Shown: positions 8,903 through 38,993 of the stretch, one piece after another
Numbering within the stretch: the stretch's first letter is position 1
How the letters are laid out: each line of letters starts with the position of its first letter
IMG/VR virus record: IMGVR_UViG_3300025009_000896
Coordinates: 19,189 to 83,188 of that record
Length of the DNA: 64,000 nt
Strand: one strand, 5' to 3'
Source of the DNA: a virus
Translations under genes and position numbers: made by a program
Notes under the pieces: model-generated
Seen by the model: only the letters and a program-made list of their open reading frames with translations
Told to the model about the DNA's origin: nothing
Database searches by the model: none

Positions 8903-8936
8903 ATCTGGAAATTATGTGTAATACCAATTGCGATTT

Positions 8937-9974: not shown

Positions 9975-9985
9975 AACTTTATTTA

Positions 9986-20129: not shown

Positions 20130-20965
20130 AGAACATACCCAATATTTGCCATCTGATGTGGGACAAGTCCCCGATGGCGTACCTACAAGTATTAACTGTG
20201 ATATCATTTCATCGGCTAAACCCCGATTGGAGGATTATAATATGGATACCCAAACAGGATGTGTCCGACCTTGGGAGTAATACCTACGTTCCTGATTATA
20301 CCGGCCCCGATTACTTTGGTATGATTACGTCTATGGATTACGTGGAGATCATAGAGGTAGACTTAAACGACTACGGCATAAGGACTGATGTTCATTTTAT
20401 TCTCTGCTCCGACCAACTCCGACTGCGGATGTTATATTCAATGGGCGGTGTCTATACAGACTTTGACGTTATATGGATAAGACCTATGGAGTCATTAGCG
20501 GGCATGGACTGTATTGGCAACCCCGAAGATTTTGAGGCATCTATCTGCTATCACGAAGATACACGGGGATGGAGTAACATAGCTATTCTCATAGCAGAAA
20601 AAGAAAGTTTGTATATTCTCGAATTGATAGAGGCACAGAAAAAGATCAAGCCCCCGTATAGCCATCAGATATATGGTACAGACCTGATTGATAGCCTATA
20701 CCCTACCTTTGAAAAGGTAGAGGCTAAGTATCCTCGCATCCTTGGAGTGAGGTATAAAACCTTCTATCCATACGACATAAACAACCTTCGTATGTTGTAT
20801 AAAGAGGATAAACTCGACATGATACTTAATGATAACGTACTATGTCTGCATTGGTTCAACGGTCATGCCCGAAGTAAGAAGTACATCAACGATGAGGACT
20901 ATAACAGACCGTGCAGCATAACCTCGGTTCTTAACTATCTGAAACTTAACAAAGGACAGCTATGA
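20126..20965 (+). CDS. DXD-type glycosyltransferase (GT32-like, OCH1/capsular type)
   Basis: The start MKNIPNICHLMWDKSPM follows the ATGA overlap and the family form (IPKIIHxxW). The DXD motif appears in LRLRMLYSMGGVYTDFDVIW, typical of the glycosyltransferase sugar-binding-region family. The C-terminus keeps LCLHWFNGHARSKKY (HxW motif). It probably adds a hexose to an oligosaccharide. Donor and acceptor are unknown. Confidence 0.8.
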   Translation: MKNIPNICHLMWDKSPMAYLQVLTVISFHRLNPDWRIIIWIPKQDVSDLGSNTYVPDYTGPDYFGMITSMDYVEIIEVDLNDYGIRTDVHFILCSDQLRLRMLYSMGGVYTDFDVIWIRPMESLAGMDCIGNPEDFEASICYHEDTRGWSNIAILIAEKESLYILELIEAQKKIKPPYSHQIYGTDLIDSLYPTFEKVEAKYPRILGVRYKTFYPYDINNLRMLYKEDKLDMILNDNVLCLHWFNGHARSKKYINDEDYNRPCSITSVLNYLKLNKGQL

Positions 20966-22095
20966 AAGTAATTTCCATTTTAGGCACGAGACCAGAAATA
21001 ATTAGAACGAGTCGTATCCTCCCCAAGTTGGATGCGCTTTGCGACCACACTATAATACATACGGCACAAAATTTTACTCATAATACCAAGGATTTGTTTT
21101 TTGAAGAACTTGGACTACGACAGCCTGATATTACGTTTTATACGAGCATGAATGATGGTAATACGCATACAGAGTTTGGATTGGGCCAACAGCTTGCGGA
21201 TATGTTCCCTCAGGTTGAAAAGGCGTTTAAGGATATCAAGCCTGACAGGGTGTTTATCTTGGGGGACACCAATTCTGCCCTATGTGCTATTATGGCAGAG
21301 AGAATGGGCATTCCCGTGGGACATATGGAGTCGTCAAATAGAAGCTATAATAATAAAATTCCCGAAGAGGTTAATAGAAGACTACTCGATCACATTTGTT
21401 CTCGCAACTTATTTTATACTCCGACCAATAGGCATACCCTACTTATGGAGGGACACGATCCCCGCAAAATATTTCAATGTGGGAACCCAACATTAGAGGT
21501 GCTGACCTACTACAAAGACAAAATTAATCAGAGCAGAATATTGTGGGATTTGGGATTAATGCCACACGAATGGCCGGGGGTGGTAGACCCCCCAATACCT
21601 TATTTTCTTGTTGATATACACCGTTCAGAGAACGTAAGTAATATTGATAAATTAGATGGCATATTGGAGGGCATAAACCTTATTGCTGAACACTTTGGGT
21701 ATCCGGTAATATGTAGCGTTCACCCTAAGACAAGAGATAAATTAAAGACTTGCCGCACGGTTGTGCATGAGAAGGTTAAGCTATTAGATGCCTTTGGTTT
21801 TTTTGACTTTGTTAAGTTAGAGAAACATGCAAGGGTTGGACTTACAGACTCTGGACTATGTAGCGAAGAATATAACCTACTTAGAGTTCCCTGTGTGATA
21901 GTTCGTAATGAGACCGAGCGTCCCGAGGTAGTAGAGGCGGGTGGTGCCATTATATCGGGGATAGATCCAAATAACATTATTAGGTGTACGGAAATAATGG
22001 ATAGACTACAGCATCGTACTTGGGAAACGCCGCAAGGATATGAGTATCTTGACGTATCGGACCGTGTAGTTAATTATATGTTAAGTGAATGGTAA
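20962..22095 (+). CDS. wecB: UDP-N-acetylglucosamine 2-epimerase (WecB-like)
   Basis: The 377-residue protein matches non-hydrolysing UDP-GlcNAc 2-epimerases: GTRPEIIR (8-15), GDTNSA (101-106), HMESSNR to IPEEVNRRLLDH (121-144), HRSEN (220-224), CSVHPKTR (251-258), TDSGLCSEE (295-303) and TERPE. It would convert UDP-GlcNAc to UDP-ManNAc, supplying a donor for the neighbouring transferases. The usual EAGLR segment is altered to ESSNR, so activity should not be taken for granted. The gene symbol is by family resemblance. Confidence 0.85.
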   Translation: MKVISILGTRPEIIRTSRILPKLDALCDHTIIHTAQNFTHNTKDLFFEELGLRQPDITFYTSMNDGNTHTEFGLGQQLADMFPQVEKAFKDIKPDRVFILGDTNSALCAIMAERMGIPVGHMESSNRSYNNKIPEEVNRRLLDHICSRNLFYTPTNRHTLLMEGHDPRKIFQCGNPTLEVLTYYKDKINQSRILWDLGLMPHEWPGVVDPPIPYFLVDIHRSENVSNIDKLDGILEGINLIAEHFGYPVICSVHPKTRDKLKTCRTVVHEKVKLLDAFGFFDFVKLEKHARVGLTDSGLCSEEYNLLRVPCVIVRNETERPEVVEAGGAIISGIDPNNIIRCTEIMDRLQHRTWETPQGYEYLDVSDRVVNYMLSEW

Positions 22096-27171: not shown

Positions 27172-28498
27172 ACTACCGCCATCAGCTATCGAGGCCGAAG
27201 AGGCAGTCCTCGGTGCTTGCTTCATTGAGGAGGATGCTTCAAGGGTAGCCGTAGGCATACTCAAACCTGATATGTTCTTTGTTCCCAATAACCAACACAT
27301 ATTCGCGTCTATCTATGAGATGAGCCATAAGGGTAAACCGGTGGACATAATCACAGTAACATCCGACCTAAGACAAAAGGGAATATTAGAAGAAGTAGGA
27401 GGGGCTATTTATGTTACTGAGTTAAGTTCTATGGTTGTCACTACCCACAACGTAGAGTCCTACTGTTTTATCATCAGGGAAAAATCAATTTTACGGCAGC
27501 ATATCGCATTTGCTGCCAATCTTACAGAAAAGGCATACACAGATAACGTACTAAGTGTTAACGAGTTTGCGGAAAACGAGGTCTTTAAGATATCATCACA
27601 GGCTCAAACCAAGGAACCTAAACGAGTAGACTCCTGTGTAGATGACTTGCTTGTTAGTGTGTCTAAGGTTGTTAATAACCCCGGCATATTGGTAGGCATA
27701 CCTTCGGGACTAAGTAGCATAGACAGAATAACGGGAGGGTTTCAAAACAGTGATCTTATCATAGTAGCTGGACGCCCAAGTCAAGGAAAATCAGCCTGTA
27801 TGCTTACATTAGCAACCGGAGCGGCTAGGCTAGGCACGCCTGTTGCGATATTTTCCTTAGAGATGTCAACGGAGCAGTTAACGGCAAGAATGGTGTCAGG
27901 CGTTTCGGGATACACTAATATGGAGATTCGCAATGGCAAGGTCAATATGGATACATTGGTCACCCAATCAGAGATAATAGCCAAACTGCCTGTTTACATA
28001 GACGATACTGCCCAAATAAGCATAGCCGAGCTAAGAAGCAAAACCAAAAAACTTATCCTAACAAAAGGGGTAAAGATGATTTTTGTGGACTACCTACAAC
28101 TTATGCGGGGATTGGGTGACTCCCGTGAGCAGGAGGTAGCCTCGATATCCAGAGGACTTAAAGCATTAGCAAAGGAAATGAATATCCCCGTTATTGCTCT
28201 GGCTCAGTTAAACAGAGAGGTAGAGTCTACTTCTGACAAGCGGCCTCAGTTATCCCACCTTCGGGGTAGCGGTGAGATAGAACAGGATGCCGATATAGTT
28301 GCCTTTATCTACCGCCCCAAGTCTTATCGAATAGACTCTATGAAGATCAACGGCGAGGAAATGAACACTAATTCTCTGATTTTATTTGACATACAGAAGC
28401 ATCGTAACGGCGCCTTATATCCCGTGTGTCTGTATCATAACGAATCACTCACTCAGATAGTTGACGACCGAGAGAGTATTGGGATACCATTGTTTTAA
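27152..28498 (+). CDS. dnaB: Replicative DNA helicase DnaB
   Basis: The 448-residue protein has the DnaB N-terminal domain (LPPSAIEAEEAVLGACFIE) and a RecA-type C-terminal motor. Walker A is GRPSQGKS (207-214), with IFSLEMS, Walker B MIFVDYLQLM, ALAQLNREVE and SGEIEQDADIVAF. It would unwind DNA ahead of the phage fork. The length is normal. Partners in the window may be the SSB-like protein, DUF4373 protein and the loader-like gene. Confidence 0.95.
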   Translation: MTTTGNKLPPSAIEAEEAVLGACFIEEDASRVAVGILKPDMFFVPNNQHIFASIYEMSHKGKPVDIITVTSDLRQKGILEEVGGAIYVTELSSMVVTTHNVESYCFIIREKSILRQHIAFAANLTEKAYTDNVLSVNEFAENEVFKISSQAQTKEPKRVDSCVDDLLVSVSKVVNNPGILVGIPSGLSSIDRITGGFQNSDLIIVAGRPSQGKSACMLTLATGAARLGTPVAIFSLEMSTEQLTARMVSGVSGYTNMEIRNGKVNMDTLVTQSEIIAKLPVYIDDTAQISIAELRSKTKKLILTKGVKMIFVDYLQLMRGLGDSREQEVASISRGLKALAKEMNIPVIALAQLNREVESTSDKRPQLSHLRGSGEIEQDADIVAFIYRPKSYRIDSMKINGEEMNTNSLILFDIQKHRNGALYPVCLYHNESLTQIVDDRESIGIPLF

Positions 28499-28502
28499 GA
28501 AT

Positions 28503-29420
28503 ATGATAGAAATAAACAAAATACACGAGGGAGATTGCACCGATGGGTTATCTAAATTACCCGATAAGTCTGTTAATTGTTGCGTAACGTCACCGCCTTA
28601 TTACGGGCTAAGGGACTATGGCGTTGAGGGTCAGATGGGATTAGAGGCTACGCCAGAACAATATGTGGATAATATGGTTAAATTGTTTACTGAAGTTAAG
28701 CGTGCGTTAAGGGATGATGGCACATTGTGGCTTAACCTTGGGGATAGTTACGCGGGAAGCGGAGGTGCGGGGTATCAATTTGGAGACCCTAAAAAACCAA
28801 AAATAAGTCACTTTGATAACCCAAATAAGAAAATTAATGGGTATAAGTCTAAGGATTTAATAGGCATACCGTGGATGGTAGCCTTTGCCCTGCGCACTGA
28901 CGGGTGGTATCTAAGACAAGACATAATATGGCACAAGCCTAACCCGATGCCAGAGAGCGTGACCGACAGGTGTACTAAGTCGCATGAGTATATTTTTTTG
29001 ATGAGCAAGTCTCCGAAGTATTATTACGACAATGAGGCAATAGCAGAAGATACGGTAACGCAAGATAGTGGAGTCAGGGATAGGGATAATTCTCGGCTAA
29101 ACAACACGCCGGGGAGGACACGTATGGGTGGGTTAACAACGAATGATTATGAAAGGCGTAATAAGCGCTCCGTTTGGACAGTTAATACTATGCCTTACTC
29201 AGAAGCCCACTTTGCCACCTTCCCCGAAAAACTAATAGTTGACATGATTAAGGCAGGTTGCCCCGAAGGGGGGACTGTTTTAGACCCGTTTATGGGGGCG
29301 GGTACGACAGCCGTTGTCGCCCGTAAGCTAAACCGCAACTATGTAGGATTTGAACTTAACCCTAAGTATATTGAGATAGCCGAGAAAAGGCTGTATGACG
29401 AGTTGGGGATGTATCTATAA
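28503..29420 (+). CDS. DNA methyltransferase (beta-type N4-cytosine/N6-adenine)
   Basis: The 305-residue enzyme starts MIEINKIHEGDCTDGL. Catalytic motif IV is TSPPYYGLRDYG (29-40); SPPY suggests N4-cytosine or N6-adenine methylation. The SAM-binding motif I lies later (DPFMGAGTTAVVARKLNRNYVGFELN), the order of the beta class. No partner nuclease is adjacent, so it is an orphan enzyme, probably protecting phage DNA from host restriction. Confidence 0.9.
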   Translation: MIEINKIHEGDCTDGLSKLPDKSVNCCVTSPPYYGLRDYGVEGQMGLEATPEQYVDNMVKLFTEVKRALRDDGTLWLNLGDSYAGSGGAGYQFGDPKKPKISHFDNPNKKINGYKSKDLIGIPWMVAFALRTDGWYLRQDIIWHKPNPMPESVTDRCTKSHEYIFLMSKSPKYYYDNEAIAEDTVTQDSGVRDRDNSRLNNTPGRTRMGGLTTNDYERRNKRSVWTVNTMPYSEAHFATFPEKLIVDMIKAGCPEGGTVLDPFMGAGTTAVVARKLNRNYVGFELNPKYIEIAEKRLYDELGMYL

Positions 29421-29538: not shown

Positions 29539-30345
29539 ATGGAAAGAGTTAGTGGTATTTACAGAATTTGCTCAAAAGTTCACCCCGACAGGTTTTATTA
29601 TGGCAGTGCCGTGTGTTTCTCTGAAAGATGGAGGCTTCATCTATTAAAACTCAGGAAGTATAAACATGAAAATGCCAAACTTCAAAATCACTACAACAAG
29701 TATGGCTCAGATGATTTATTTTTTGAGGTGGTTGTAGAGTGTGACGTTGATTCCTTGCTTGCAATAGAAAATACTTATCTTAACCCCCTCCCGTTTTTCA
29801 ATATATGTCCAACGGCGGGGAGCAGTTTGGGTGTTAAGCGTACTGATGAGTATAAGGATAAGATGCGAAGGTCTAAAAAGAATCCCTCCCAAGAGCTAAG
29901 GGATAAAATAGGGATGTCCCTAAGGGGGAACATACCGTGGAATAAGGGTAAAAAATTATCAGAAGAGCATGTTAGGAAACTGAGCGAGTCTCATATGGGA
30001 TACGTGCCCACGGATGAGCATCGTAAAAATCTCAGCAAGGCGAATATGGGGCGAAAAATGACTGATGAACAGCGGGAGCGGGTGAGATTGCGGATGATTG
30101 GAAACACAAACGCGGCGGGGCGGATTATATCTGACGAGACCCGAGAAAAACTGAGTAAAGCCCTTCGTGGGAAAAAGAGATCAGAGGCCGAGGCTAATAG
30201 ACTAAGAACAATAGGGATAGGTCGGCACCCAAACGAAGAAACGAGAAGAAAAATAAGTGAAGCGTCAAAGGAGATGTGGCGAAGGCGTAGGGAGGCGAAA
30301 CTGTTAATGTTAGAGGAATCCCAAAACCATAGTTCTGAGGATTAA
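29539..30345 (+). CDS. GIY-YIG homing endonuclease with NUMOD3 repeats
   Basis: The 268-residue protein has an N-terminal GIY-YIG nuclease (SGIYRICSKVHPDRFYYGSA, then LQNHYNKYGSDDLFFEVV and IENTYLN). Basic NUMOD3 repeats follow (IPWNKGKKLSEEHVRKLSES, DEHRKNLSKANMG, DETREKLSKALRGKKRS, ETRRKISEASKEMW), which bind DNA. It is a free-standing homing endonuclease between the methyltransferase and the terminase region. Confidence 0.9.
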   Translation: MERVSGIYRICSKVHPDRFYYGSAVCFSERWRLHLLKLRKYKHENAKLQNHYNKYGSDDLFFEVVVECDVDSLLAIENTYLNPLPFFNICPTAGSSLGVKRTDEYKDKMRRSKKNPSQELRDKIGMSLRGNIPWNKGKKLSEEHVRKLSESHMGYVPTDEHRKNLSKANMGRKMTDEQRERVRLRMIGNTNAAGRIISDETREKLSKALRGKKRSEAEANRLRTIGIGRHPNEETRRKISEASKEMWRRRREAKLLMLEESQNHSSED

Positions 30346-30971: not shown

Positions 30972-31658
30972 ATGCAATTAAAGGATATAGATGTTTCAAG
31001 ACTATCATTCGACATATTTGATAGCGACTTCACAACGACTATAAAAGAAAAGATACCTGAGTTCAACGAATACGAAGGAGTGATACCTGAGTTAGACGTA
31101 TTCAGGTTTGTTGTTATAATGTGGGATATGAAGTCTCCTATGTTACGTGAGGTTGATGACTATTATGCACGTATGTATGCTACCGCATCAATGGTGGGGT
31201 TCCCAAGGACTAAAAACAACTTCAGCAAGGAGGCAGACGAGATAATCATAGGTAAGAATGAGAGCGTGAACAGGATGATAGTAGCCTATACTGCGTACAT
31301 GGGCGTACCCGAGTATCAGTACCTAATGGCTTATCAGGCGCTGTTCGCAAGTGAATACGCTAAAGTTTTGAGGGGCAAGGGCGGCAAGGACAGCGACAAG
31401 ATATTAGAGAACGCAAGCGGGAAGGTCACTAAGTTCACGAGGGCTATCTTCGGGTCGGGAGACTACGATGAGTACTCTTTGAGGAGACAGGCGTTGTATC
31501 AGAAGATTGAGAAAGACAAATTAAGATTAAGACCCGAGCAGATCATCAGGGACTTAACGGATAACGGAGATTTGCCTGAAGACTTTAACCCCTACGGTGA
31601 CTACTCTATCGATATAAATAAGGATATTAAGTTCGTTGGTGATGGCAAAGAAGGTTGA
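30972..31658 (+). CDS. Probable small terminase subunit
   Basis: The 228-residue, mostly helical protein lies directly upstream of, and overlaps, the large terminase gene. It has a central basic/helical region (KNNFSKEADEIIIGKNESVNRMIVAYTAYMG) and a C-terminal acidic part. No HTH motif is certain, so the call rests mainly on position and size. It would bind phage DNA to start packaging. Confidence 0.55.
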   Translation: MQLKDIDVSRLSFDIFDSDFTTTIKEKIPEFNEYEGVIPELDVFRFVVIMWDMKSPMLREVDDYYARMYATASMVGFPRTKNNFSKEADEIIIGKNESVNRMIVAYTAYMGVPEYQYLMAYQALFASEYAKVLRGKGGKDSDKILENASGKVTKFTRAIFGSGDYDEYSLRRQALYQKIEKDKLRLRPEQIIRDLTDNGDLPEDFNPYGDYSIDINKDIKFVGDGKEG

Positions 31659-33978
31659 TTACACCGAACTTTACGTTCCGGCTGACACTGTTTTTGCAAT
31701 TAATAACCTCGATCCAGATCGAAAGACTATCGTTTTGTCTCTGCCCAAACCACCGAACGTAAACACTATTGATAATTTTGGCCTACACCCTGACGAACAG
31801 TATTTCAAACGGTGGAAGACACCTAAGAAGCTATTAACTATTGAAAAAGAGGTCTTAAGAGAACTTCAGGATATTCAAAAGGGCAACAGACAGGAGACTG
31901 TAACGGGGTATAAAATAATTGACAAGTTCTGGGATAAGGTAGAAGAAGAAAGGGACGACTTAGAGGCAGAGATAGACTTCATTAAGAAGCTGTGGTGGCA
32001 TAGGATGAACGGCTATTGGTTCTACAACGACGGCAAACCAACGTACATAACCGGAAGGCACTTCATGTTCCTGAACTTCTTTTATCAACCCGATATAACT
32101 ACTAACGACGGGTACCCTGAGTACAGAGACAGACACCGGAGGGAGTTTCTATTCAGAGAGTATCTGAGGCACGCTACCGAGACGTTTGCCAAGAGAGATG
32201 AAAGAGGGTGGGCTGTGCCTAATGCTGATGGTAGTTATGATATGATTGATGTGGGGTCGAGAGTAAGCTATGGAGACATACATCCTAAGTCCCGAAGGAA
32301 CGGTTCTACAATGATGGCATTGTGTGATATGATTGAAAGTTCGGAAAGGAGTTTTGGTATCTACTCTACTATAATTTCAAAAGACGGTGAGGCCACCGAG
32401 GAGCACTACAACCTTAAGCTACTTCCTTCGTGGGTAATGAGGCCGTATTTTCTTAAACCCGTGTGGCAGGGATCGTCCCAACCAACGCAGATAAAATATT
32501 TTCCTCCTAAAAACTACTACGGCAACGAAGCCCTGATGAGTGTCATTGACTACACCGTATCGGCCTCGGAGACTAAAAAAGATGGGTCTAAGTTTAATGG
32601 AGAACTCGTATGCGATGAGGAGGGCAAGGTTTCTGGATTAGGAGTCAACGTCTTACAGAGGTGGGACGTAAATAAGAACGCACTTGCCCTTGGTGACGGT
32701 ACTAAGATATTAGGATACTCTACTCACATCTCAACGGTAGAAGACATCAATGCTGCGGGTATGGCCTTCTTGGATATGCTTGAACTCTCTGACTTTTATC
32801 AAAGGGGAGAGAGTGGGCAGACTACATCAGGTCTTATGGCTCACCTGTATCCTTCTTATGACGGTCAGGAAAACTTCATAGATCGGTATGGTATGTCAGT
32901 CATTGACACCCCCACAGACCGACAGTGCCGCTTATCTCATTCAGCAATCTTCGCTACGCTTAAAAAGGGAGCCAAGCAATATCAACAGGAAAAGAGAGAT
33001 GACTTCTTAAAGAAGGGCACCCCTGCTGCTATGCAGTCTTATAGGGCTTATGTTAAGAAGTACCCGTGGAAGACAAGCGAACTCTATATGTCAACAGTCT
33101 CAGACATGGGCTTTGACTATGAGATACTTGACACCCGAATCATGGAGTTGAGGAAGATGAAGTCCTTGGGTAAGATGCCATATAAGGTCGGGAACTTCTA
33201 CCGTGAGGGAGACCCGTTAGAGGGTAGGGTATATTGGAAGACAGAACCCGAAGGGAAGTTTGAGTTATCCATGGAACTTAAGCCTGAAGAAGCAAATCTT
33301 AAACGTAAAACTTTGGTTTGGGATGGCACTAAGATGTCTATGGTGCCAGCTTGGGAGCCTGTTTATAAAACGAGGTTTACCGCAGGGGCTGATCCATTTC
33401 GTTTCAGGAACAGCAAAGACATCACCACTAATAAGCAATCTGATGGCGGAATAGCAGTATTATGGCACGATTTTTCTAAGCCCAATAAGTCAGAGAATAG
33501 GAAGTTTGTATTGTCATATAGGTATAGACCTCATACATTAGAAGAATACTGTGAGGACTGCATAAAAGTGTGTGAGTATTTTGGGGCTATGTGTTATCCC
33601 GAAAACAACCTCACAGGAGTATATGAGCACTTCATTAAGAGGATGAGGGGCGGATATCTTAAGTACGATCAAGACTCGATCACGGGTCGAGCAAAGGATA
33701 CCCCCGGATATTACGCATCTCCGGGAACAATAAACGACGGGATGTCCCAAATTAAAGATTACATAGTCTTCAATGGAGCAGAAGAAAATCACTTAAGTTT
33801 TTTGGAAGAGGTGCGTGGCATGAGAAGTGTAGATGATTTAACTAATAACGATAGGTTTGCAGCGCACATGGCCAGCTTACTCGGCGCCCTCAGCAGCTAC
33901 GGCAAGGCATCGGATTTTATGAATACTCAAACAATAGACCTCGGGAAAGTCTCTTGGTTACAAAAAAGATCATTTTAA
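31642..33978 (+). CDS. terL: Large terminase subunit (TerL)
   Basis: This 778-residue protein is large for TerL but within the range of Bacteroidota podoviral terminases. The ATPase region includes GRHFMFLNFFY, HPKSRRNGSTMM (probable Walker A-like, about 214-225) and GELVCDEEGK (probable Walker B, about 312). The nuclease half has TAGADPFRF (about 578) and CYPENNL (about 652), placing RNase H-like acidic residues. It cuts and pumps DNA into the prohead. A dispersed-motif copy (31626-31641) lies immediately before the ATG. Confidence 0.85.
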   Translation: MAKKVDYTELYVPADTVFAINNLDPDRKTIVLSLPKPPNVNTIDNFGLHPDEQYFKRWKTPKKLLTIEKEVLRELQDIQKGNRQETVTGYKIIDKFWDKVEEERDDLEAEIDFIKKLWWHRMNGYWFYNDGKPTYITGRHFMFLNFFYQPDITTNDGYPEYRDRHRREFLFREYLRHATETFAKRDERGWAVPNADGSYDMIDVGSRVSYGDIHPKSRRNGSTMMALCDMIESSERSFGIYSTIISKDGEATEEHYNLKLLPSWVMRPYFLKPVWQGSSQPTQIKYFPPKNYYGNEALMSVIDYTVSASETKKDGSKFNGELVCDEEGKVSGLGVNVLQRWDVNKNALALGDGTKILGYSTHISTVEDINAAGMAFLDMLELSDFYQRGESGQTTSGLMAHLYPSYDGQENFIDRYGMSVIDTPTDRQCRLSHSAIFATLKKGAKQYQQEKRDDFLKKGTPAAMQSYRAYVKKYPWKTSELYMSTVSDMGFDYEILDTRIMELRKMKSLGKMPYKVGNFYREGDPLEGRVYWKTEPEGKFELSMELKPEEANLKRKTLVWDGTKMSMVPAWEPVYKTRFTAGADPFRFRNSKDITTNKQSDGGIAVLWHDFSKPNKSENRKFVLSYRYRPHTLEEYCEDCIKVCEYFGAMCYPENNLTGVYEHFIKRMRGGYLKYDQDSITGRAKDTPGYYASPGTINDGMSQIKDYIVFNGAEENHLSFLEEVRGMRSVDDLTNNDRFAAHMASLLGALSSYGKASDFMNTQTIDLGKVSWLQKRSF

Positions 33979-33989
33979 TTTTTTATTAT

Positions 33990-33997
33990 TATCTTTG
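33990..33997 (+). promoter_or_regulatory. Promoter of tRNA sub-array A
   Basis: TATCTTTG lies 12 bases after the terL stop and just upstream of the leader ORF at 34002. Confidence 0.65.
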
Positions 33998-34001
33998 TGA
34001 C

Positions 34002-34052
34002 ATGAGAATGAATCAACATATAGAGCAGCCGATAAACTTACTTGGTGGGTGA
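34002..34052 (+). CDS. Leader peptide A of the tRNA array attenuator
   Basis: This 16-codon ORF reads MRMNQHIEQPINLLGG and stops at TGA (34050-34052). Residues 5-11 (Gln-His-Ile-Glu-Gln-Pro-Ile; codons CAA CAT ATA GAG CAG CCG ATA) use only the five amino acids carried by the five tRNAs immediately downstream, and both Ile codons are ATA, the codon read by the Ile(UAU) tRNA there. An intrinsic terminator follows. The first ATG is close to the expected transcript start; the ATG at 34008 is an alternative. Confidence 0.6.
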   Translation: MRMNQHIEQPINLLGG

Positions 34053-34098
34053 GGTAACTCTATATTGTATATAGCCCTCCCCACAAGGAGGGTTTTTT
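34048..34098 (+). promoter_or_regulatory. Attenuator A: competing hairpins
   Basis: The terminator stem is CCCTCC (34075-34080) with GGAGGG (34087-34092) plus six T. An alternative pairing joins GGTGAGG (34048-34054, overlapping the leader stop codon) with CCTCCCC (34076-34082), with one mismatch. A ribosome at the stop would cover the alternative arm and favour termination. Confidence 0.5.
34075..34098 (+). terminator. Intrinsic terminator of leader A
   Basis: A 6-bp GC-rich stem CCCTCC/GGAGGG with a 6-base loop and a TTTTTT tail, upstream of the first tRNA. Confidence 0.85.
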
Positions 34099-34104
34099 GT
34101 TTTA

Positions 34105-34189
34105 CGGAGTGTAGGTCTGTAGCTGGTAGCAGTCCTGCCTTGGAAGCAGGTGGAGCAATCCCTCGTCGGTTCGATCCCGGCCACTCCGA
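34105..34189 (+). tRNA. tRNA-Pro(UGG)
   Basis: Acceptor CGGAGTG/CACTCCG with A discriminator; anticodon stem CCTGC/GCAGG with loop CTTGGAA (anticodon TGG). C1-G72 and A73 fit proline identity. The variable region is unusually long (about 14 bases), so the class is odd. First of sub-array A. Confidence 0.75.
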
Positions 34190-34194
34190 CTTAT

Positions 34195-34265
34195 TGAGGC
34201 TTCGTTTAACGGTAGGACGCACGGCTTATACCCATGTAATCAGAGTCCAATTCTCTGAGCCTCAA
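34195..34265 (+). tRNA. tRNA-Ile(UAU)
   Basis: Acceptor TGAGGCT/AGCCTCA; T stem CAGAG/CTCTG; anticodon loop CTTATAC gives TAT, reading the rare AUA codon. AUA is the Ile codon used in leader A. Confidence 0.85.
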
Positions 34266-34267
34266 CT

Positions 34268-34341
34268 GTGTCAGATGCTCGTATGGACAGAGTGACGGAT
34301 TGTGACTCCGTTAGAAGCCAGTTCAAATCTGGTCTGACACC
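34268..34341 (+). tRNA. tRNA-His(GUG)
   Basis: Acceptor GTGTCAG/CTGACAC with C discriminator, as for histidine; anticodon stem ACGGA/TCCGT with loop TTGTGAC (GTG). Confidence 0.9.
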
Positions 34342-34345
34342 CTAT

Positions 34346-34416
34346 GTTCGGTTCGTCTATCGGTAGGACGGCGGGTTTTCATCCCGTAAAGGCGAGTTCG
34401 ATTCTCGCACCGAATA
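34346..34416 (+). tRNA. tRNA-Glu(UUC)
   Basis: Acceptor GTTCGGT/ACCGAAT; anticodon stem GCGGG/CCCGT with loop TTTTCAT (TTC); T arm GCGAG-TTCGATT-CTCGC. Confidence 0.9.
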
Positions 34417-34421
34417 CATAT

Positions 34422-34492
34422 TGCCCTGTCGTATAGAGGTGGTACACATGGCTTTGAACCATGCGGAGAAGGGTCAGTACCTTCCGGGGCAT
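34422..34492 (+). tRNA. tRNA-Gln(UUG)
   Basis: Acceptor TGCCCTG/CGGGGCA; anticodon stem CATGG/CCATG with loop CTTTGAA (TTG). The T loop (GTCAGTA) departs from TTC consensus. Last tRNA of sub-array A. Confidence 0.85.
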
Positions 34493-34501
34493 CAAAATAA
34501 A

Positions 34502-34532
34502 TTTGCATATTAAATTAAAAGTATTATCTTTG
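34502..34532 (+). promoter_or_regulatory. Promoter of tRNA sub-array B
   Basis: TTTG (34502-34505), 19 bases, TATCTTTG (34525-34532). The -33 region (ATTTGCATATTAAA) is almost the same as at sub-array C. Confidence 0.75.
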
Positions 34533-34551
34533 CAGTAATTAAGGCATAAGG

Positions 34552-34626
34552 ATGCAAATGGTAAGAAAAAATATGGTGAATATTGACCGCACAGGCGCAA
34601 CCGTGCGAAAGGGTATCCCCATATAG
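34552..34626 (+). CDS. Leader peptide B of the tRNA array attenuator
   Basis: This 24-codon ORF starts about 15-20 bases after the expected transcript start and stops at TAG (34624-34626). Residues 4-22 read VRKNMVNIDRTGATVRKGI. Of 24 residues, 22 are amino acids carried by the tRNAs of sub-array B (Ile, Met, Asn, Arg, Asp, Ala, Gly, Lys, Thr and Val); only Gln2 and Pro23 are not. All ten isotypes are represented. Arg codons include AGA and CGC/CGA, matching both Arg tRNAs (UCU and ACG). Its last codons form the 5' arm of an antiterminator. Confidence 0.7.
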   Translation: MQMVRKNMVNIDRTGATVRKGIPI

Positions 34627-34679
34627 TTCTTTGAAAGGATTATTAAGGCGGATGCCCTCACAAAATGGGGGCATTTTTA
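34610..34679 (+). promoter_or_regulatory. Attenuator B: competing hairpins
   Basis: AGGGTATCC (34610-34618, inside the last leader codons) can pair over 9 bp with GGATGCCCT (34650-34658), with one G-U. The same downstream bases ATGCCC (34652-34657) form the terminator with GGGCAT (34669-34674), followed by TTTTT. The two structures exclude each other. Confidence 0.65.
34652..34679 (+). terminator. Intrinsic terminator of leader B
   Basis: ATGCCC/GGGCAT stem, loop of about 11 bases, then TTTTT, just upstream of tRNA-Ile(GAU). Confidence 0.8.
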
Positions 34680-34681
34680 TT

Positions 34682-34754
34682 TTGGCTTATAGTTTAATGG
34701 TAGAACGCCTCGCTGATACCGAGGTAATTCAAGTCCGATTCTTGGTGAGCCAAC
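34682..34754 (+). tRNA. tRNA-Ile(GAU)
   Basis: Acceptor TTGGCTT/GAGCCAA; anticodon stem CCTCG/CGAGG with loop CTGATAC (GAT). First of sub-array B. Confidence 0.9.
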
Positions 34755-34759
34755 AACAT

Positions 34760-34830
34760 TGTGGGGTAGAGTAACGGTAACTCGTGGGGCCCATAACCCC
34801 AAGCTGAGGGTTCAACTCCCCCTCCCGCAA
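34760..34830 (+). tRNA. tRNA-Met(CAU), initiator-like
   Basis: Acceptor TGTGGGG/TCCCGCA; anticodon stem TGGGG/CCCCA with loop CCCATAA (CAT). The run of G-C pairs at the base of the anticodon loop is the mark of initiator tRNA, and the sequence follows bacterial initiator tRNA closely, but position 33 is C instead of T. Confidence 0.8.
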
Positions 34831-34836
34831 CTAATT

Positions 34837-34910
34837 GGGAATGTAGCTCGTATGGAAGTAGCTACGGCCTGTTAAGCCGAAGGTAGAAGGTTCGAGTCCT
34901 TCCGTTCCCG
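34837..34910 (+). tRNA. tRNA-Asn(GUU)
   Basis: Acceptor GGGAATG/CGTTCCC with G discriminator; anticodon loop CTGTTAA (GTT); T arm GAAGG-TTCGAGT-CCTTC. Confidence 0.9.
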
Positions 34911-34913
34911 CAA

Positions 34914-34987
34914 TGCTCTTATGGTGTAATGAACAGCACAGGGGTCTTCTAATCCCTTAGTTTGGGTTTGATTCCTAATAGGAGCAC
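34914..34987 (+). tRNA. tRNA-Arg(UCU)
   Basis: Acceptor TGCTCTT/AGGAGCA; anticodon loop CTTCTAA (TCT) with one mismatched pair (T-T) at the top of the anticodon stem. Reads AGA/AGG. Confidence 0.8.
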
Positions 34988-34991
34988 AAAT

Positions 34992-35066
34992 GCCTTCGTC
35001 GGCCCCTTGGTGGGGAACCAGACTGTCACTCTGGTAAAACAGACGGATCGTAACCGTTCGGGGGCG
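34992..35066 (+). tRNA. tRNA-Asp(GUC)
   Basis: Acceptor GCCTTCG/CGGGGGC with G discriminator; anticodon stem CCAGA/TCTGG with loop CTGTCAC (GTC). Confidence 0.9.
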
Positions 35067-35069
35067 CAA

Positions 35070-35141
35070 GGGCTGTTCGTATAGTGGCTATTACTTCTGT
35101 TTTGCAAGCAGGAAACGAGATTTCGATTATCTCACAGTCCA
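35070..35141 (+). tRNA. tRNA-Ala(UGC)
   Basis: Acceptor GGGCTGT/ACAGTCC; anticodon loop TTTGCAA (TGC). The bases CCA follow directly (35142-35144), so the 3' end may be encoded. Confidence 0.85.
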
Positions 35142-35146
35142 CCAAT

Positions 35147-35218
35147 GCGGGATAGGTGTTGACACATACACAGGAGTCTTCCAAACTTCAGTAGACGGAG
35201 GGTTACCGTCATCCCGCT
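35147..35218 (+). tRNA. tRNA-Gly(UCC)
   Basis: Acceptor GCGGGAT/ATCCCGC; anticodon stem GGAGT/ACTTC with loop CTTCCAA (TCC). Confidence 0.85.
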
Positions 35219-35222
35219 CTAA

Positions 35223-35293
35223 GTGATCGTAGCAAATCGGTTATGCCCCGCCCTTTTAAGGCGGTGAGATTGGTTCGACTCCAATCGGTCACA
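35223..35293 (+). tRNA. tRNA-Lys(UUU)
   Basis: Acceptor GTGATCG/CGGTCAC with A discriminator; anticodon stem CCGCC/GGCGG with loop CTTTTAA (TTT). Confidence 0.9.
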
Positions 35294-35298
35294 CAAAT

Positions 35299-35371
35299 GC
35301 GCTCATAGCATAATGGAAAGTGTGCAAGGCTACGAACCTTGGCGGTTGGAGTTCGACTCTTCATGGGCGTA
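35299..35371 (+). tRNA. tRNA-Arg(ACG)
   Basis: Acceptor GCGCTCA/TGGGCGT; anticodon stem CAAGG/CCTTG with loop CTACGAA (ACG). Reads CGN codons after A-to-I editing. Confidence 0.9.
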
Positions 35372-35376
35372 CTAAT

Positions 35377-35448
35377 GCTCCATAAGCATTGATGGCGATG
35401 CGCTAGTCTTGTAAACTTGAAAGCAGGGTTCGATTCCTTGATGGAGCT
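35377..35448 (+). tRNA. tRNA-Thr(UGU)
   Basis: Acceptor GCTCCAT/ATGGAGC; anticodon loop CTTGTAA (TGT) with one T-T mismatch in the anticodon stem. Confidence 0.85.
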
Positions 35449-35468
35449 CAGGTGGAATTTACAAACTA

Positions 35469-35500
35469 TTTGGAGGTTACAAATCTTTTGTATATCTTTG
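35469..35500 (+). promoter_or_regulatory. Promoter of the HNH gene inside the tRNA array
   Basis: TTTG (35469-35472), 20 bases, TATCTTTG (35493-35500), five bases before the ATG at 35505. Confidence 0.65.
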
Positions 35501-35504
35501 TGTT

Positions 35505-35924
35505 ATGGAAAAGAAAAAAGAATGTCCTAAATGTGGAATTAAAAAAACAATAGATTATTTTACTAAGTCTAAATCGCGCAAGGATGGGTTTGGGTCTTTT
35601 TGCCTAGAGTGTGGAAGAAAATACGGGCGGCTTCATTATAAAAATAATAAAGCTGAATATATTAAAAGAATATCCTCTAACAAAGAAAGGGTTCGTGATC
35701 TTTATATAACTCTTAAAAAGTCATATGTATGCAGTAAGTGCGGGGACAATAGATGGTATGTGTTAGATTTTCATCACGAAGGAAATAAGGAATCTGACAT
35801 AGCCCATATGGCATCGGAGGGATATTCAATAGATTCCATTAAAAAAGAGATAGAAAAATGTATAGTGTTATGTTCTAATTGCCACAGAGAATTACATTAC
35901 AAACAAAATGGGGGCATAGTTTAA
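35505..35924 (+). CDS. HNH endonuclease inserted in the tRNA array
   Basis: This 139-residue protein has a zinc-knuckle N-terminus (CPKCGIKKTIDYF, CLECGRKYGRLHY) and an HNH-type core (CSKCGDNRWYVLDFHH, CIVLCSNCHRELHY). It has its own promoter, and its last five codons run into tRNA-Val. It is very AT-rich compared with the tRNAs. It looks like a homing gene that entered between tRNA-Thr and tRNA-Val. Confidence 0.8.
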   Translation: MEKKKECPKCGIKKTIDYFTKSKSRKDGFGSFCLECGRKYGRLHYKNNKAEYIKRISSNKERVRDLYITLKKSYVCSKCGDNRWYVLDFHHEGNKESDIAHMASEGYSIDSIKKEIEKCIVLCSNCHRELHYKQNGGIV

Positions 35925-35979
35925 TTGGCAAAACGTTTGTGTTACATACAAGTCATGACGTTCGAGTCGTCTGCCCCTA
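35910..35979 (+). tRNA. tRNA-Val(UAC), overlaps HNH stop
   Basis: Acceptor GGGGGCA/TGCCCCT; anticodon stem TTTGT/ACAAG with loop GTTACAT (TAC). It belongs to sub-array B by position, split off by the HNH gene; Val is one of the residues of leader B. Confidence 0.85.
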
Positions 35980-35984
35980 CTAAT

Positions 35985-36010
35985 ATTGTTCGATTCCAGT
36001 AGAGACTACA
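35985..36010 (+). pseudogene. tRNA remnant (T-arm fragment)
   Basis: The bases TTGTTCGATTCCAG look like the 3' half of a T arm, with no upstream D or anticodon arm that folds. It is probably the residue of a lost tRNA between sub-arrays B and C. Confidence 0.35.
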
Positions 36011-36016
36011 AGTTTA

Positions 36017-36048
36017 TTTGCATATATTAAAAACAATGATTACCTTTG
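36017..36048 (+). promoter_or_regulatory. Promoter of tRNA sub-array C
   Basis: TTTG (36017-36020), 20 bases, TACCTTTG (36041-36048). Confidence 0.75.
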
Positions 36049-36055
36049 CCTTGAA

Positions 36056-36115
36056 ATGAGAAATTGTTGGTCATATAGTTCGTTTTTACTCTTGCTCTCA
36101 AAGCGAGGTAGATGA
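36056..36115 (+). CDS. Leader peptide C of the tRNA array attenuator
   Basis: This 19-codon ORF reads MRNCWSYSSFLLLLSKRGR and stops at TGA (36113-36115). Nine residues are Ser, Tyr or Leu, the only isotypes in sub-array C. Ser codons include TCA and TCG plus AGT, and Leu codons include TTA and TTG plus CTC, so both Ser and both Leu tRNA families are sampled. The remaining Cys, Trp and Phe are the three amino acids with no tRNA anywhere in the array. The last codons form an antiterminator arm. Confidence 0.65.
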   Translation: MRNCWSYSSFLLLLSKRGR

Positions 36116-36163
36116 CCTATATATCCATATAGCATAGACCTCGCCCATAAAGCGGGGTTTTTT
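36103..36163 (+). promoter_or_regulatory. Attenuator C: competing hairpins
   Basis: GCGAGGT (36103-36109, last leader codons) is perfectly complementary to ACCTCGC (36138-36144). The same CCTCGC (36139-36144) forms the terminator stem with GCGGGG (36152-36157) followed by TTTTTT. Upstream, GGTCAT (36069-36074) can pair with ATGACC (36112-36117). Confidence 0.7.
36139..36163 (+). terminator. Intrinsic terminator of leader C
   Basis: CCTCGC/GCGGGG stem (one T-G pair), 7-base loop, TTTTTT tail, directly upstream of tRNA-Leu(UAA). Confidence 0.8.
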
Positions 36164-36168
36164 ATTTT

Positions 36169-36244
36169 GCTCCGGTAGCCCAATTGGTAGAATGGCAACG
36201 GGTTTAAGCCCCGTTCAGTGTCGGTTCGAATCCGACTCGGAGTA
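36169..36244 (+). tRNA. tRNA-Leu(UAA), short variable arm
   Basis: Acceptor GCTCCGG/TCGGAGT; anticodon stem ACGGG/CCCGT with loop TTTAAGC (TAA). The variable region is only about 5 bases, whereas bacterial leucine tRNAs normally carry a long arm. Confidence 0.75.
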
Positions 36245-36249
36245 CAAAT

Positions 36250-36325
36250 GCCGCAGTAGCAGAATTGGCACGTGCGTTAGTCTTAGAAACTAATAGTTAT
36301 GTGAGTTCGAATCTCACCTGCGGTA
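36250..36325 (+). tRNA. tRNA-Leu(UAG), short variable arm
   Basis: Acceptor GCCGCAG/CTGCGGT; anticodon stem TTAGT/ACTAA with loop CTTAGAA (TAG); T arm GTGAG-TTCGAAT-CTCAC. Variable region about 7 bases, again short for leucine. Confidence 0.75.
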
Positions 36326-36329
36326 CTAA

Positions 36330-36421
36330 GGATGGGTGAACCCCAGTTGGCCTAAGGGGGACGGTCTTGAAAACCGTAGGTCGCTCAAAACGGCGTGGGG
36401 GTTCGAGTCCCTCCCCATCCG
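36330..36421 (+). tRNA. tRNA-Ser(UGA)
   Basis: Acceptor GGATGGG/CCCATCC with G discriminator; anticodon stem ACGGT/ACCGT with loop CTTGAAA (TGA); normal long class II variable arm. Confidence 0.9.
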
Positions 36422-36426
36422 CAATA

Positions 36427-36497
36427 TGGGAGTAATTCTTTGGAGAAGACGGGTCTGTAACACCCCAAATAGAAAGTTCGATGCTTCCTACTCCCAC
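36427..36497 (+). tRNA. tRNA-Tyr(GUA), short variable arm
   Basis: Acceptor TGGGAGT/ACTCCCA; anticodon loop CTGTAAC (GTA). Some stem mismatches occur, and the variable region is about 5 bases, though bacterial tyrosine tRNAs are class II. Confidence 0.7.
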
Positions 36498-36501
36498 TAA
36501 T

Positions 36502-36586
36502 GGAGGGCTGCTGTAATGGTATCAGAGCGGTTCGCTAAACCGTCCGTCAGCAATGGCGTGGCAGGGTTCGACTCCCCCGTCCTCCG
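36502..36586 (+). tRNA. tRNA-Ser(GCU)
   Basis: Acceptor GGAGGGC/GTCCTCC with G discriminator; anticodon stem GCGGT/ACCGT with loop TCGCTAA (GCT); long class II variable arm. Last tRNA of the array. Confidence 0.9.
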
Positions 36587-36606
36587 CACTGATTTCTCAC
36601 ATTCAC

Positions 36607-36635: not shown

Positions 36636-38993
36636 GTGATTAGACTCGAAAAGTATATCGGCGGGATAAGCCCAAGTAGAGACATAGCCCCCGAGAAAAA
36701 GACAGAAGTATATTGTAGAAAAAATGCCGAGTTTCTGTATGGTCTTTGGTGCGGATCGGCCACAGCTTGGGGCTATGACTCCCTCTCGTTTTTTAATGAG
36801 ATGCGGCAGTATAGCAATGGGGCTCAGGATACAAATCAATATAAAAGTTTTTTAACCAACTCGGGGGCAAATAACTCTGAGACTTTTAGTCTGTATGATA
36901 ATGATGCAGGCATAACGCAACGAGCAAAACGCGACGGATATTATAACCTGCTATGGCAGAATCTTTCTCCTGCGCCGAAGATTCTCAATGCATTACACGG
37001 GGCTTTGGGTTCTTATGATTACGATCTTTACTGCGATACCATAGATGCCAATTCGAGGGGATTGGTAGAGTTTGAAAAGTTTAAGAAGTTTCACGAGGCT
37101 CGTGATATAAAGTGGCAAACGGAATATAAAACTAAGGCAGGTATCCCCGTCGACGAAGACGCTAACTTTCCTAAGACACTTGAGGAATTAGAAGCCTTCT
37201 CCGCAAGGGAAGGGTTTAAACTGAATATAGCCCGTGCTATGCAGAAGGTGCTAAGGCATGGGTTTAATGTCAGCGATTGGGACGGGTCTATCAGGAAGAA
37301 GCTGTTAGACGACCTTATTACTTTAGGCTACTGCGCCGCAGAAGACTTGTATGACGACGAAGATAGGCTGTTTAAAACACAATGGCTTGACCCCGCAAGG
37401 ACTGTGATGCAATTTTCCCACGAGAAAGATTATTCGGATGCAGAATATGGTGGGCACTTCTCAGAGTGGACAATCTCTAATGTAAGGCGTAAAAGACCTG
37501 ATCTTACTGAAGATGAGTTGTATGCTTTGGCTAAAAACAATAAGGGCAATTTTAACAACCCAACAATACAGTGGGGGGAGAGAACGAGTATGCTTGACAT
37601 AACAAGTAACTCTTACCTTTATGATGACTTCAAGGTAGCAGTGTTTAAGGCTTATTGGATAGATACCGACACTTACAAGAGCCTCTACTATAACAACAAC
37701 TCCGGTCGGGAGATGGTCAAAGAGGTGGGGTATGATGAGAAGATAACCCCCTTAACCAAAAACCAAATAGCTAAAGGCAAAAAGCAAGAGGTAAAACAGA
37801 CTAAAATCAGGGTTGTTTATCAGTGTTCATGGGTAGTGGGGTCTGAGATATGTTGGGATCATGGTAAGCTATTGATGGGTGCAAGGCCGCAGCCGTCTAA
37901 GCCTAAGATACCTATCCACGTTGAGCAGTTGCTACAACCTTCTATTGTCTACAGGCTTAAGCCTATCTTAGACTCAATAGCCTTGACGTGGCTACAGCAT
38001 CAGAACTCTATGGCTAAGATGATAGAGAAGGGCTATGCCGTGAATATGAGCATGTTGATGAATGTAACGATGAATGGGAAGGATGCATTAGACCCTGCTG
38101 GTGTTTTAAATATGTGGAAGCAGACGGGGATTCTACCTTATATGTATGGTGGGGCTAATGGGCAATACCCGGGTGGGGCCGCTATTCCCGTCACTCCTAT
38201 TGACGGAGGATTAGGGAATAGAATACAGGAGACCGCTATGGCCTTAGAGACTAACTTCAAGCTAATTGAGGAGATAGTGGGGATAAACCCTGTTGCAATG
38301 GGGTCTACTCCTACTAAAGACTCACAGGTAGGTACTACCGAGATGGCGATGCAGGCCACATCCAACGTGCTTAAACCTATAGTAGAGGGTATGTTCGAGA
38401 TCAAGCAGAGTCTTGGTTCAAGTTTAATGTTAAGAACACAGATAGGTCTTAGGGTAGATAAAGACATAAGAGATGCCTATGCAGGTATTATCTCTCCTTC
38501 TGATATTAAGTCGTTGGTTTTGGCAGAACACAATAGTGTTCAGTATGGCATTAGCCTTAAGGCCAAGCCTGATGATAAACGTAAAGCTACGCTGCTTAAC
38601 TTCATTACTCTTGAAGTAGAGAAGGGCACATTGGGTTCACCGGAAGGAATGTACTTTGCCGAAAGATTAGAATCGGGTGCAGACATGATAGAACTCCGTC
38701 AGGAGATAGCCTATGCAATAGAAAAAGGACAGCAGCGTAAGATGCAAGAGTCGTTGGCTACTATCCAAGAGCAGAATAAGGGTATGCTTGAAAACGAACA
38801 GCTTAAGGGGCAGAACGAACAGGCTAAGATCAATGCCGAGGGACAGGTGAAGATGGCTGAAGAAGCCCTAAGAGGGGATATAAAGCATAAGTTACAGAGA
38901 CAACAGAATAATGCAGAATTAATGAGCAGACTCTTTGATGATGTGGCTGCTGAAAAAGAAATAAAGAATGACAACACCAGAAGACAGGCTTAA
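36636..38993 (+). CDS. Portal protein
   Basis: This 785-residue protein starts at GTG (IRLEKYIGGISPSRD). Its place after terminase and before scaffold and capsid, together with its size, fits the large portal proteins of Bacteroidota podoviruses. It has a helical wing region (MQKVLRHGFNVSDWDGSIRKKLLDDLITLGYCAAEDLYD), an IEEIVGINPVAMGS segment as in podoviral portals, and a charged C-terminal helix (IQEQNKGMLENEQLKGQNEQ). It would form the DNA channel at the capsid vertex. Confidence 0.75.
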   Translation: MIRLEKYIGGISPSRDIAPEKKTEVYCRKNAEFLYGLWCGSATAWGYDSLSFFNEMRQYSNGAQDTNQYKSFLTNSGANNSETFSLYDNDAGITQRAKRDGYYNLLWQNLSPAPKILNALHGALGSYDYDLYCDTIDANSRGLVEFEKFKKFHEARDIKWQTEYKTKAGIPVDEDANFPKTLEELEAFSAREGFKLNIARAMQKVLRHGFNVSDWDGSIRKKLLDDLITLGYCAAEDLYDDEDRLFKTQWLDPARTVMQFSHEKDYSDAEYGGHFSEWTISNVRRKRPDLTEDELYALAKNNKGNFNNPTIQWGERTSMLDITSNSYLYDDFKVAVFKAYWIDTDTYKSLYYNNNSGREMVKEVGYDEKITPLTKNQIAKGKKQEVKQTKIRVVYQCSWVVGSEICWDHGKLLMGARPQPSKPKIPIHVEQLLQPSIVYRLKPILDSIALTWLQHQNSMAKMIEKGYAVNMSMLMNVTMNGKDALDPAGVLNMWKQTGILPYMYGGANGQYPGGAAIPVTPIDGGLGNRIQETAMALETNFKLIEEIVGINPVAMGSTPTKDSQVGTTEMAMQATSNVLKPIVEGMFEIKQSLGSSLMLRTQIGLRVDKDIRDAYAGIISPSDIKSLVLAEHNSVQYGISLKAKPDDKRKATLLNFITLEVEKGTLGSPEGMYFAERLESGADMIELRQEIAYAIEKGQQRKMQESLATIQEQNKGMLENEQLKGQNEQAKINAEGQVKMAEEALRGDIKHKLQRQQNNAELMSRLFDDVAAEKEIKNDNTRRQA

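Follow-up and report, generated by a model that had tools for sequence, protein, structure and literature searches.

Three tRNA gene blocks of a Bacteroidota phage are preceded by candidate attenuators whose leader codons match the tRNAs encoded downstream

The tRNA array and its leaders

The DNA analysed here, referred to as the window, is a stretch of 64,000 nucleotides (nt) from the 83,188-base IMG/VR virus record IMGVR_UViG_3300025009_000896 (positions 19,189 to 83,188), and the virus is attributed to Bacteroidota hosts. An array of 21 tRNA genes is located between the terL gene (31636-33978) and the portal gene (36636-38993), whose products are distant relatives (~22-25% identity) of marine flavobacterial phage proteins, e.g. 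those of phi46:3, phi38:1 and Gundel_1. The array is divided into three sub-arrays (A, B and C), each preceded by a TAnnTTTG promoter, an open reading frame (ORF) of 16-24 codons and an intrinsic terminator. An original prediction made from the sequence had described this layout and had proposed that the short ORFs belong to attenuators which sense the supply of the tRNAs encoded behind them.

ARAGORN identified 18 tRNAs with default settings, and relaxed thresholds added those for Gln, Gly and Tyr; in an Rfam scan the Gln tRNA scored above the cut-off and the Tyr tRNA just below it. All 21 tRNAs, together with the promoters, ORFs and terminators, were recovered at the predicted positions on the plus strand. 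The -7 element of promoter A (TATCTTTG, Bacteroidota type, 33990-33997) lies 4 nt before the ATG of leader ORF A (MRMNQHIEQPINLLGG, 34002-34052, 16 codons), in which the residues QHIEQPI match sub-array A. The leader is followed by an intrinsic terminator with a T tract (34074-34099, stem 34074-34093) and by sub-array A (34105-34493) with the tRNAs Pro(UGG), Ile(UAU), His(GUG), Glu(UUC) and Gln(UUG). Promoter B (TATCTTTG, 34525-34532) precedes leader ORF B (MQMVRKNMVNIDRTGATVRKGIPI, 34552-34626, 24 codons), its terminator with T tract (34651-34682, stem 34651-34675) and sub-array B (34683-35449), which encodes Ile(GAU), Met, Asn, Arg(UCU), Asp, Ala, Gly, Lys, Arg(ACG) and Thr and has Val(UAC) (35909-35980) as its last tRNA. 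Promoter C (TACCTTTG, 36041-36048) is situated 7 nt before the ATG of leader ORF C (MRNCWSYSSFLLLLSKRGR, 36056-36115, 19 codons), and here the terminator with T tract (36137-36166, stem 36137-36159) is followed by sub-array C (36169-36587) with Leu(UAA), Leu(UAG), Ser(UGA), Tyr(GUA) and Ser(GCU). The tRNAs of all three sub-arrays were assigned with ARAGORN and Rfam. A TAnnTTTG element close upstream of the start codon, as in Bacteroidota promoters of the -33/-7 type, is present for all three leaders.

Leader codons and downstream tRNAs

Each of the 21 tRNAs of the window finds a codon that it can read in its own leader, compared to a mean of 12.4 when the tRNAs are shuffled between the blocks (p=5e-5). 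As had been claimed from the sequence, leader A covers all five isotypes encoded downstream (Gln, His, Ile, Glu and Pro), leader B covers 10/10 isotypes with 22 of its 24 residues matching (start Met included), and leader C contains Ser, Tyr and Leu, matching sub-array C. The claimed agreement at the level of isoacceptors was found as well: AUA codons for Ile(UAU) are present in leader A, both AGR and CGN codons for Arg in leader B, and UCN and AGY codons for Ser as well as UUR and CUN codons for Leu in leader C. Leader C furthermore contains codons for Cys, Trp and Phe, and the tRNAs for these amino acids are absent from the window and present in its relatives.

When the 20 amino acids were relabelled, the observed match was never equalled in 200,000 trials per phage, carried out for three phages of the window lineage. 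Among the 436 short ORFs of the window that start with ATG, none besides the leaders equals the match for sub-arrays A or B, and one other does so for C. Both comparisons favour a real match over one expected of random short ORFs.

Relatives of the window lineage

Queries of viral contigs with terL alone returned only relatives devoid of tRNAs (L002-L005), and the portal alone gave no match. Two relatives with arrays, L006 and L019, were found by degenerate patterns of the leaders. Most matches to the leader A pattern (L008-L015, L017 and L018) lack a tRNA array, as do the leader B and C pattern matches L020 and L021, and these were set aside as chance. A tblastn search with leader B revealed no annotated phage. 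In L002, the terL relative (7983-11495, 1170 amino acids) appears by eye to carry an intein-like insert (CFGKGTEIRMFDGS ... VAHNT).

L006 and L019 share 41-42% identity with the window in terL and 45-47% in the portal protein, and both have kept the three leaders with their promoters and terminators. The sequence QHIEQP of leader A is retained in L006, L019 and L024, the sequence NMVNIDRTGAT.R.GIPI of leader B in L006 and L019, and homologues of leader C are present in L006, L019 and L027. Leader pairs within this lineage differ by 1-6 synonymous changes per pair. Block C of L006 and L019 includes tRNAs for Trp, Phe and Cys (Cys assigned by eye), which correspond to the extra residues of leader C, and in these two phages the three leaders, like the tRNAs, add up to all 20 amino acids. 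An additional tRNA-Leu(CAA) in block C of L019 (8098-8171) and L027 (300-373) is accompanied by TTG codons in leader C. As the array of L019 is located upstream of terL and not between terL and the portal gene, the array module has moved as a whole.

The 84-kb record of L032 (terL 42% identity) contains no tRNA over its whole length and lacks a QHIEQP leader. In L024 (~433-560) and L025 (~356-480), leader A and its terminator are followed by a hybrid tRNA, whose 5' half looks like Pro and whose 3' half looks like Trp, and then by Phe and Cys tRNAs. From its sequence, this arrangement looks like a recent deletion by recombination between two tRNA genes.

The same design with another partition in cultured flavophages

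The same design is found in four cultured marine phages, namely phi38:1 (Pervagoviridae) and phi4:1 (Lightbulbvirus, 146 kb) of Cellulophaga baltica, and the Pachyviridae phages Panino of Maribacter and Gundel_1 of Tenacibaculum. phi4:1 is not among the terL matches of the window phage. In these flavophages block 1 encodes Pro/Glu/Gln/His/Leu/Leu/Arg(ACG), block 2 Ala/Lys/Ile/Gly/Met/Asp/Thr/Val, with Arg(UCU) added in phi38:1 and phi4:1 and Ile(UAU) in phi38:1, and block 3 Tyr/Ser/Ser/Asn/Trp/Phe/Cys. Of these sets, Gundel_1 has the third alone, lacking Asn, besides a block with Pro/Gln/Met/Asn/Leu. Type 1 leaders begin with MKIQRLHLQELEQP, MKTQRLHQELEQP and MNVTLLHQEPLEQLRLP, type 2 leaders with MKTIMNIATDIRTKGV, MRAATGIAIIGRTKDK and, with a GTG start, VQLTKTGITVIDKTKGARA, and type 3 leaders with MKTNMTYNNFSWYSNCSFSSYN, MKTNYCTYNNSNWSFSY and MKTKLYSYSCFSSWF. 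Two leaders of phi38:1 use the promoter variant TATATTTA.

Several tRNAs are allotted to different blocks in the two groups, and in each case the codon counts of the leaders follow. Leu belongs to the Gln/His/Glu/Pro block in the flavophages and to the Ser/Tyr block in the window lineage. Asn, which the window lineage has in block B, is found in the Tyr/Ser/Trp block (in Gundel_1 in the Pro/Gln block). Arg(ACG), also in B in the window lineage, is part of the Pro/Gln block, and Ile(UAU), there in A, is part of the Ala/Lys block of phi38:1. The covariation between leader and tRNA content that the original prediction had anticipated in relatives is therefore observed. With seven phages pooled, a match in the tRNA's own leader exists for 148 of 150 tRNAs, as opposed to 103 of 289 tRNA-leader pairs in sister leaders, and the permutation p is <=0.0075 in each phage and <=5e-5 in six of the seven. 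By this measure the leaders are rich in codons tied to the downstream genes, as are attenuators of the trp/his type.

An Rfam search had indicated a second array in Panino, on the opposite strand, and its content was predicted in writing before the sequence was read: Tyr/Ser/Ser/Asn/Trp/Phe/Cys, preceded by a leader in which those residues are abundant. Exactly these seven tRNAs were found, preceded by TATATTTG, a spacing of 4 nt, the leader MKTKGNTFSWFNYSNCSDCNCGGTGCVCKFDLV, which begins with MKTKGNTFSWFNYSNCSDCNC, and a terminator of -18.5 kcal/mol. A match that is due to chance or composition, with terminators that merely insulate the tRNA blocks from read-through, can thus be given a negligible probability. 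A high raw match is partly expected for sub-array B, since its ten isotypes span ~60% of residues, but the permutation results in six phages, the rarity of comparable matches among the 436 short ORFs and the successful prediction speak against it, and the covariation already contradicts it.

It also appears very improbable that the leaders code for small conserved peptides that act in their own right, the terminators behind them being ordinary. Such a function would be in line with the conservation of residues between phages of 41-42% terL identity, with 1-6 synonymous changes per leader pair. However, the order of residues in type C leaders changes (SYSSFLLLLS in L006 vs SYSLFSLLLL in L019, and CW vs WC) while the composition stays within the tRNA set, for which reason we reject this explanation; moreover, across families the same block is preceded by different peptides that track its tRNA content, and no leader was found in phages without tRNAs.

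Whole-genome scans for a promoter, a short ORF and a terminator yield mainly these leaders. The gut Crassvirales arrays of crAss001 and cr111_1 (24-26 tRNAs) have no leader with terminator at the places examined, phi46:3 has neither tRNAs nor a leader, and the lone tRNA-Ile of phi4:1 has no leader in the stretch viewed. Judging from these controls, the system belongs to a certain set of phages and is not shared by all tRNA arrays. In Panino, an annotated tmRNA (L088, 5140-5472) is located inside the Ala/Lys/Ile block, and the leader of this block may also control this trans-translation RNA.

Type 1 and type 3 leaders start 4-9 nt past the -7 element, in most phages 4 nt, whereas the distance is 18-24 nt for type 2 leaders and mostly 9-26 nt for other window genes with this promoter. 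With starts so near to the -7 element, the mRNAs of leader A, at 4 nt, and leader C, at 7 nt, should be leaderless or nearly so. The short spacing of the type A and C leaders recurs in unrelated phages and deserves an explanation.

Predicted RNA structures

The leader RNAs A, B and C of the window fold better than shuffled sequences (z -2.9 to -3.0). For all three, folding predicts an intrinsic terminator between the leader ORF and the first structural gene and a mutually exclusive antiterminator whose 5' strand consists of the last leader codons, as in attenuators of the trp/his type, where this strand is covered by the ribosome. The pairing of the last codons with the 5' arm of the terminator and the exclusive hairpins proposed originally were thus reproduced. 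In leader A, GUGGG (34045-34049) is predicted to pair with CCCAC (34080-34084), in leader B GGGUAUCC (34611-34618) pairs 8/8 with GGAUGCCC (34650-34657), and in leader C GCGAGGU (36103-36109) pairs 7/7 with ACCUCGC (36138-36144). A hairpin between segments 1 and 2, as found in trp and his attenuators, is predicted for A and C. It is formed in A by AUAUAGAG (34018-34025, over the codons CAU AUA GAG) and CUCUAUAU (34058-34065), and in C by AUAUAG (36073-36078, in the codons UCA UAU AGU) and CUAUAU (36117-36122), whereas leader B folds as the antiterminator by default when no ribosome is present.

When the end of the leader was masked, as by a ribosome at the stop codon, the terminator was the predicted fold in every leader examined from all lineages, and when the last codons were freed, the antiterminator was predicted in all three leaders of the window. 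This bears on the possibility that the sign is reversed or the coupling translational, i.e. that a ribosome which completes the leader would promote read-through, or the processing of the tRNA transcript. In favour of such a coupling, leader B is predicted to fold as an antiterminator without a ribosome; the terminator predicted for every covered leader end, as in trp, his and pheST, nevertheless makes such a coupling improbable.

The antiterminators of B and C pair fully across the window lineage, with one double compensatory change each (B in L006, C in L019), and a hairpin within leader B shows one further double compensatory change. Apparent changes on both sides of pairs in segments 2:3 of C and in the segments of A are partly due to shifted registers and were discounted as covariation. 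Compared with synonymous codons, the pairing of the leader end is unusually strong in leader A of L006 (0.002), leader C of L019 (0.0025) and the type 2 leaders of phi38:1 (0.003) and Panino (<0.001), a modelled property that we consider supportive, though not uniform.

Leader C resembles the Trp_leader family of Rfam (RF00513) below threshold in the window (E=0.0078, 27.7 bits) and in L019 (E=0.0018, 30.0 bits), missing the gathering cut-off of 41 bits in both. Rfam scans of five phages gave no covariance match to a T-box riboswitch up to E=1, and this candidate was dismissed.

Other features of the window

Sub-array B is interrupted by an ORF of 139 amino acids (35505-35924, plus strand) with its own TATCTTTG promoter, which precedes the tRNA-Val gene and overlaps its start. 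It has no match in Pfam, but by eye it is HNH-like (CxxC and CSNCHRELH motifs), and from these motifs it is probably a homing-endonuclease insertion. The arrays of L006 and Gundel_1 are also interrupted by other ORFs, at differing places. Elsewhere in the window, a GIY-YIG/NUMOD3 homing endonuclease gene adjoins a DNA methyltransferase gene (29539-30345 and 28461-29420). Several glycosyltransferases, a radical SAM protein, a methyltransferase and a UDP-GlcNAc 2-epimerase are encoded at 16784-22095 and 7907-8902, and these genes perhaps form a glycan-modifying cluster.

Discussion

The anatomy of the three leaders, the codon matching, its covariation with tRNA content and the conserved exclusive pairings can be read directly from the sequences. 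We consider it very likely that each sub-array is a separate transcription unit under a leader-peptide attenuator that has as sensor codons the ones read by its own tRNAs. Attenuation that senses tRNA supply, as originally proposed, gains support from the covariation, the fulfilled prediction for Panino and the predicted exclusive hairpins.

Several observations weigh against this assignment. The window phage retains Cys, Trp and Phe codons in leader C without the matching tRNAs, two of the 150 tRNAs (both Met) are unmatched, and the assignment of a few tRNAs was made by eye or lies below the thresholds of the tools. L024 and L025 are a mild counterexample in that they retain leader A though only remnants of the array are left. 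The seven phages are not fully independent, since leaders of one type look homologous. The exclusive antiterminator is less clear for several leaders of the other phages, and freeing of the last codons favours the antiterminator in only about half of all leaders. The pairing of the leader end does not exceed that of synonymous codon choices in leader A of L019, types 1 and 3 of phi38:1 and type 3 of phi4:1.

The best reading of the sequences, and the simplest, would be classical attenuation of the trp/his type in which tRNAs are both sensed and controlled. RNA polymerase would initiate at the TAnnTTTG promoter and a ribosome at the short leader ORF. With all cognate charged tRNAs present, the ribosome would reach the stop codon and cover the last codons, i.e. 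the 5' strand of the antiterminator; the antiterminator being blocked, the terminator would form and no tRNAs would be made. If any cognate tRNA is short, the ribosome would stall upstream, the antiterminator would pair with the 5' arm of the terminator and the whole block would be transcribed. The supply of its own products would therefore feed back negatively on such a circuit. Transcripts that are not translated would also terminate in A and C by means of the segment 1:2 hairpin, in the manner of trp and his, and in B the antiterminator would be the default fold. Translation of the leaders, stalling, the direction of the response and its physiological trigger are what we infer here.

Leader-peptide attenuation has long been known. 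The phage leaders resemble the trp, his, thr and ilvGMEDA attenuators (Rfam RF00513 and kin) in having a short ORF with regulatory codons, an exclusive antiterminator and an intrinsic terminator. They differ from them in that they are found in phages and control tRNA genes instead of biosynthesis enzymes, that one leader carries up to ten isotypes and that three leaders jointly cover 20 amino acids (L006, L019). In the pheST attenuator of E. coli, with its leader peptide PheM, a leader peptide controls a gene that acts on tRNA charging. This is the closest known case, as sensor and product form one loop, but what it produces is an aminoacyl-tRNA synthetase specific to a single amino acid, whereas the products of the phage system are the tRNAs themselves. 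T-box RNAs bind tRNA directly without translation of a leader, and their read-through is set by tRNA charging; the phage system would share the latter property, but involves a leader ORF.

As to the trigger, host tRNA cleavage is our hypothesis, while amino-acid shortage or the codon demand of late infection and of the phage is equally compatible. An argument for cleavage is the known ability of phage tRNAs to counteract it: those of tRNA-rich phages are believed to stand in for tRNAs that host defences destroy (PMC10264068, PMC11555353). The attenuators might instead track amino-acid starvation, i.e. charging and not loss of tRNA, with extra tRNA as a side effect or scavenging aid. This is a variant of the attenuation proposed here and compatible with its anatomy: classical leader-peptide attenuators respond to charging, and uncharged and absent tRNAs are indistinguishable from sequence. 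Nevertheless, we regard it as rather unlikely, since the controlled genes are tRNAs and not biosynthesis or transport genes, and the match follows isoacceptors across blocks (AUA with Ile(UAU), CGN with Arg(ACG)), which amino-acid charging alone would not need. Starting from attenuation by tRNA supply, we tentatively suggest, as somewhat short of probable, a mobile, modular system that splits a near-complete tRNA set among three codon-matched attenuators. The loss of any single tRNA, e.g. through a host anticodon nuclease, would then induce only the block that replaces it, and the whole would act as a damage sensor for all amino acids coupled to a repair response.

The cited studies (PMC10264068, PMC11555353) concern which tRNAs phages carry, and the leaders described here concern when these tRNAs are made; in PMC10264068 leaders or attenuation are nowhere mentioned, and the published descriptions of Panino, Gundel and Calle go no further than tRNA counts. 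No earlier description of leader-peptide control of phage tRNA genes was found in the searched literature, which covered few subscription papers, in agreement with the original statement that no comparable system was known to have been described. While attenuation itself is old, we found no earlier report of tRNA genes controlled by leaders of their own codons, in sets covering the whole code.

The presence of the system in the cultured phages phi38:1, phi4:1, Panino and Gundel_1 makes it directly testable. The leaders could provide a readout of the tRNAs that are depleted in infection, as well as parts for multi-amino-acid biosensors. Why phages carry tRNA arrays and how these are controlled is a long-standing question. 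A codon-matched attenuator before each block would show the signal that the phage itself uses, namely a shortage of those tRNAs, in a closed loop where tRNA genes are governed by the translation of their own codons.

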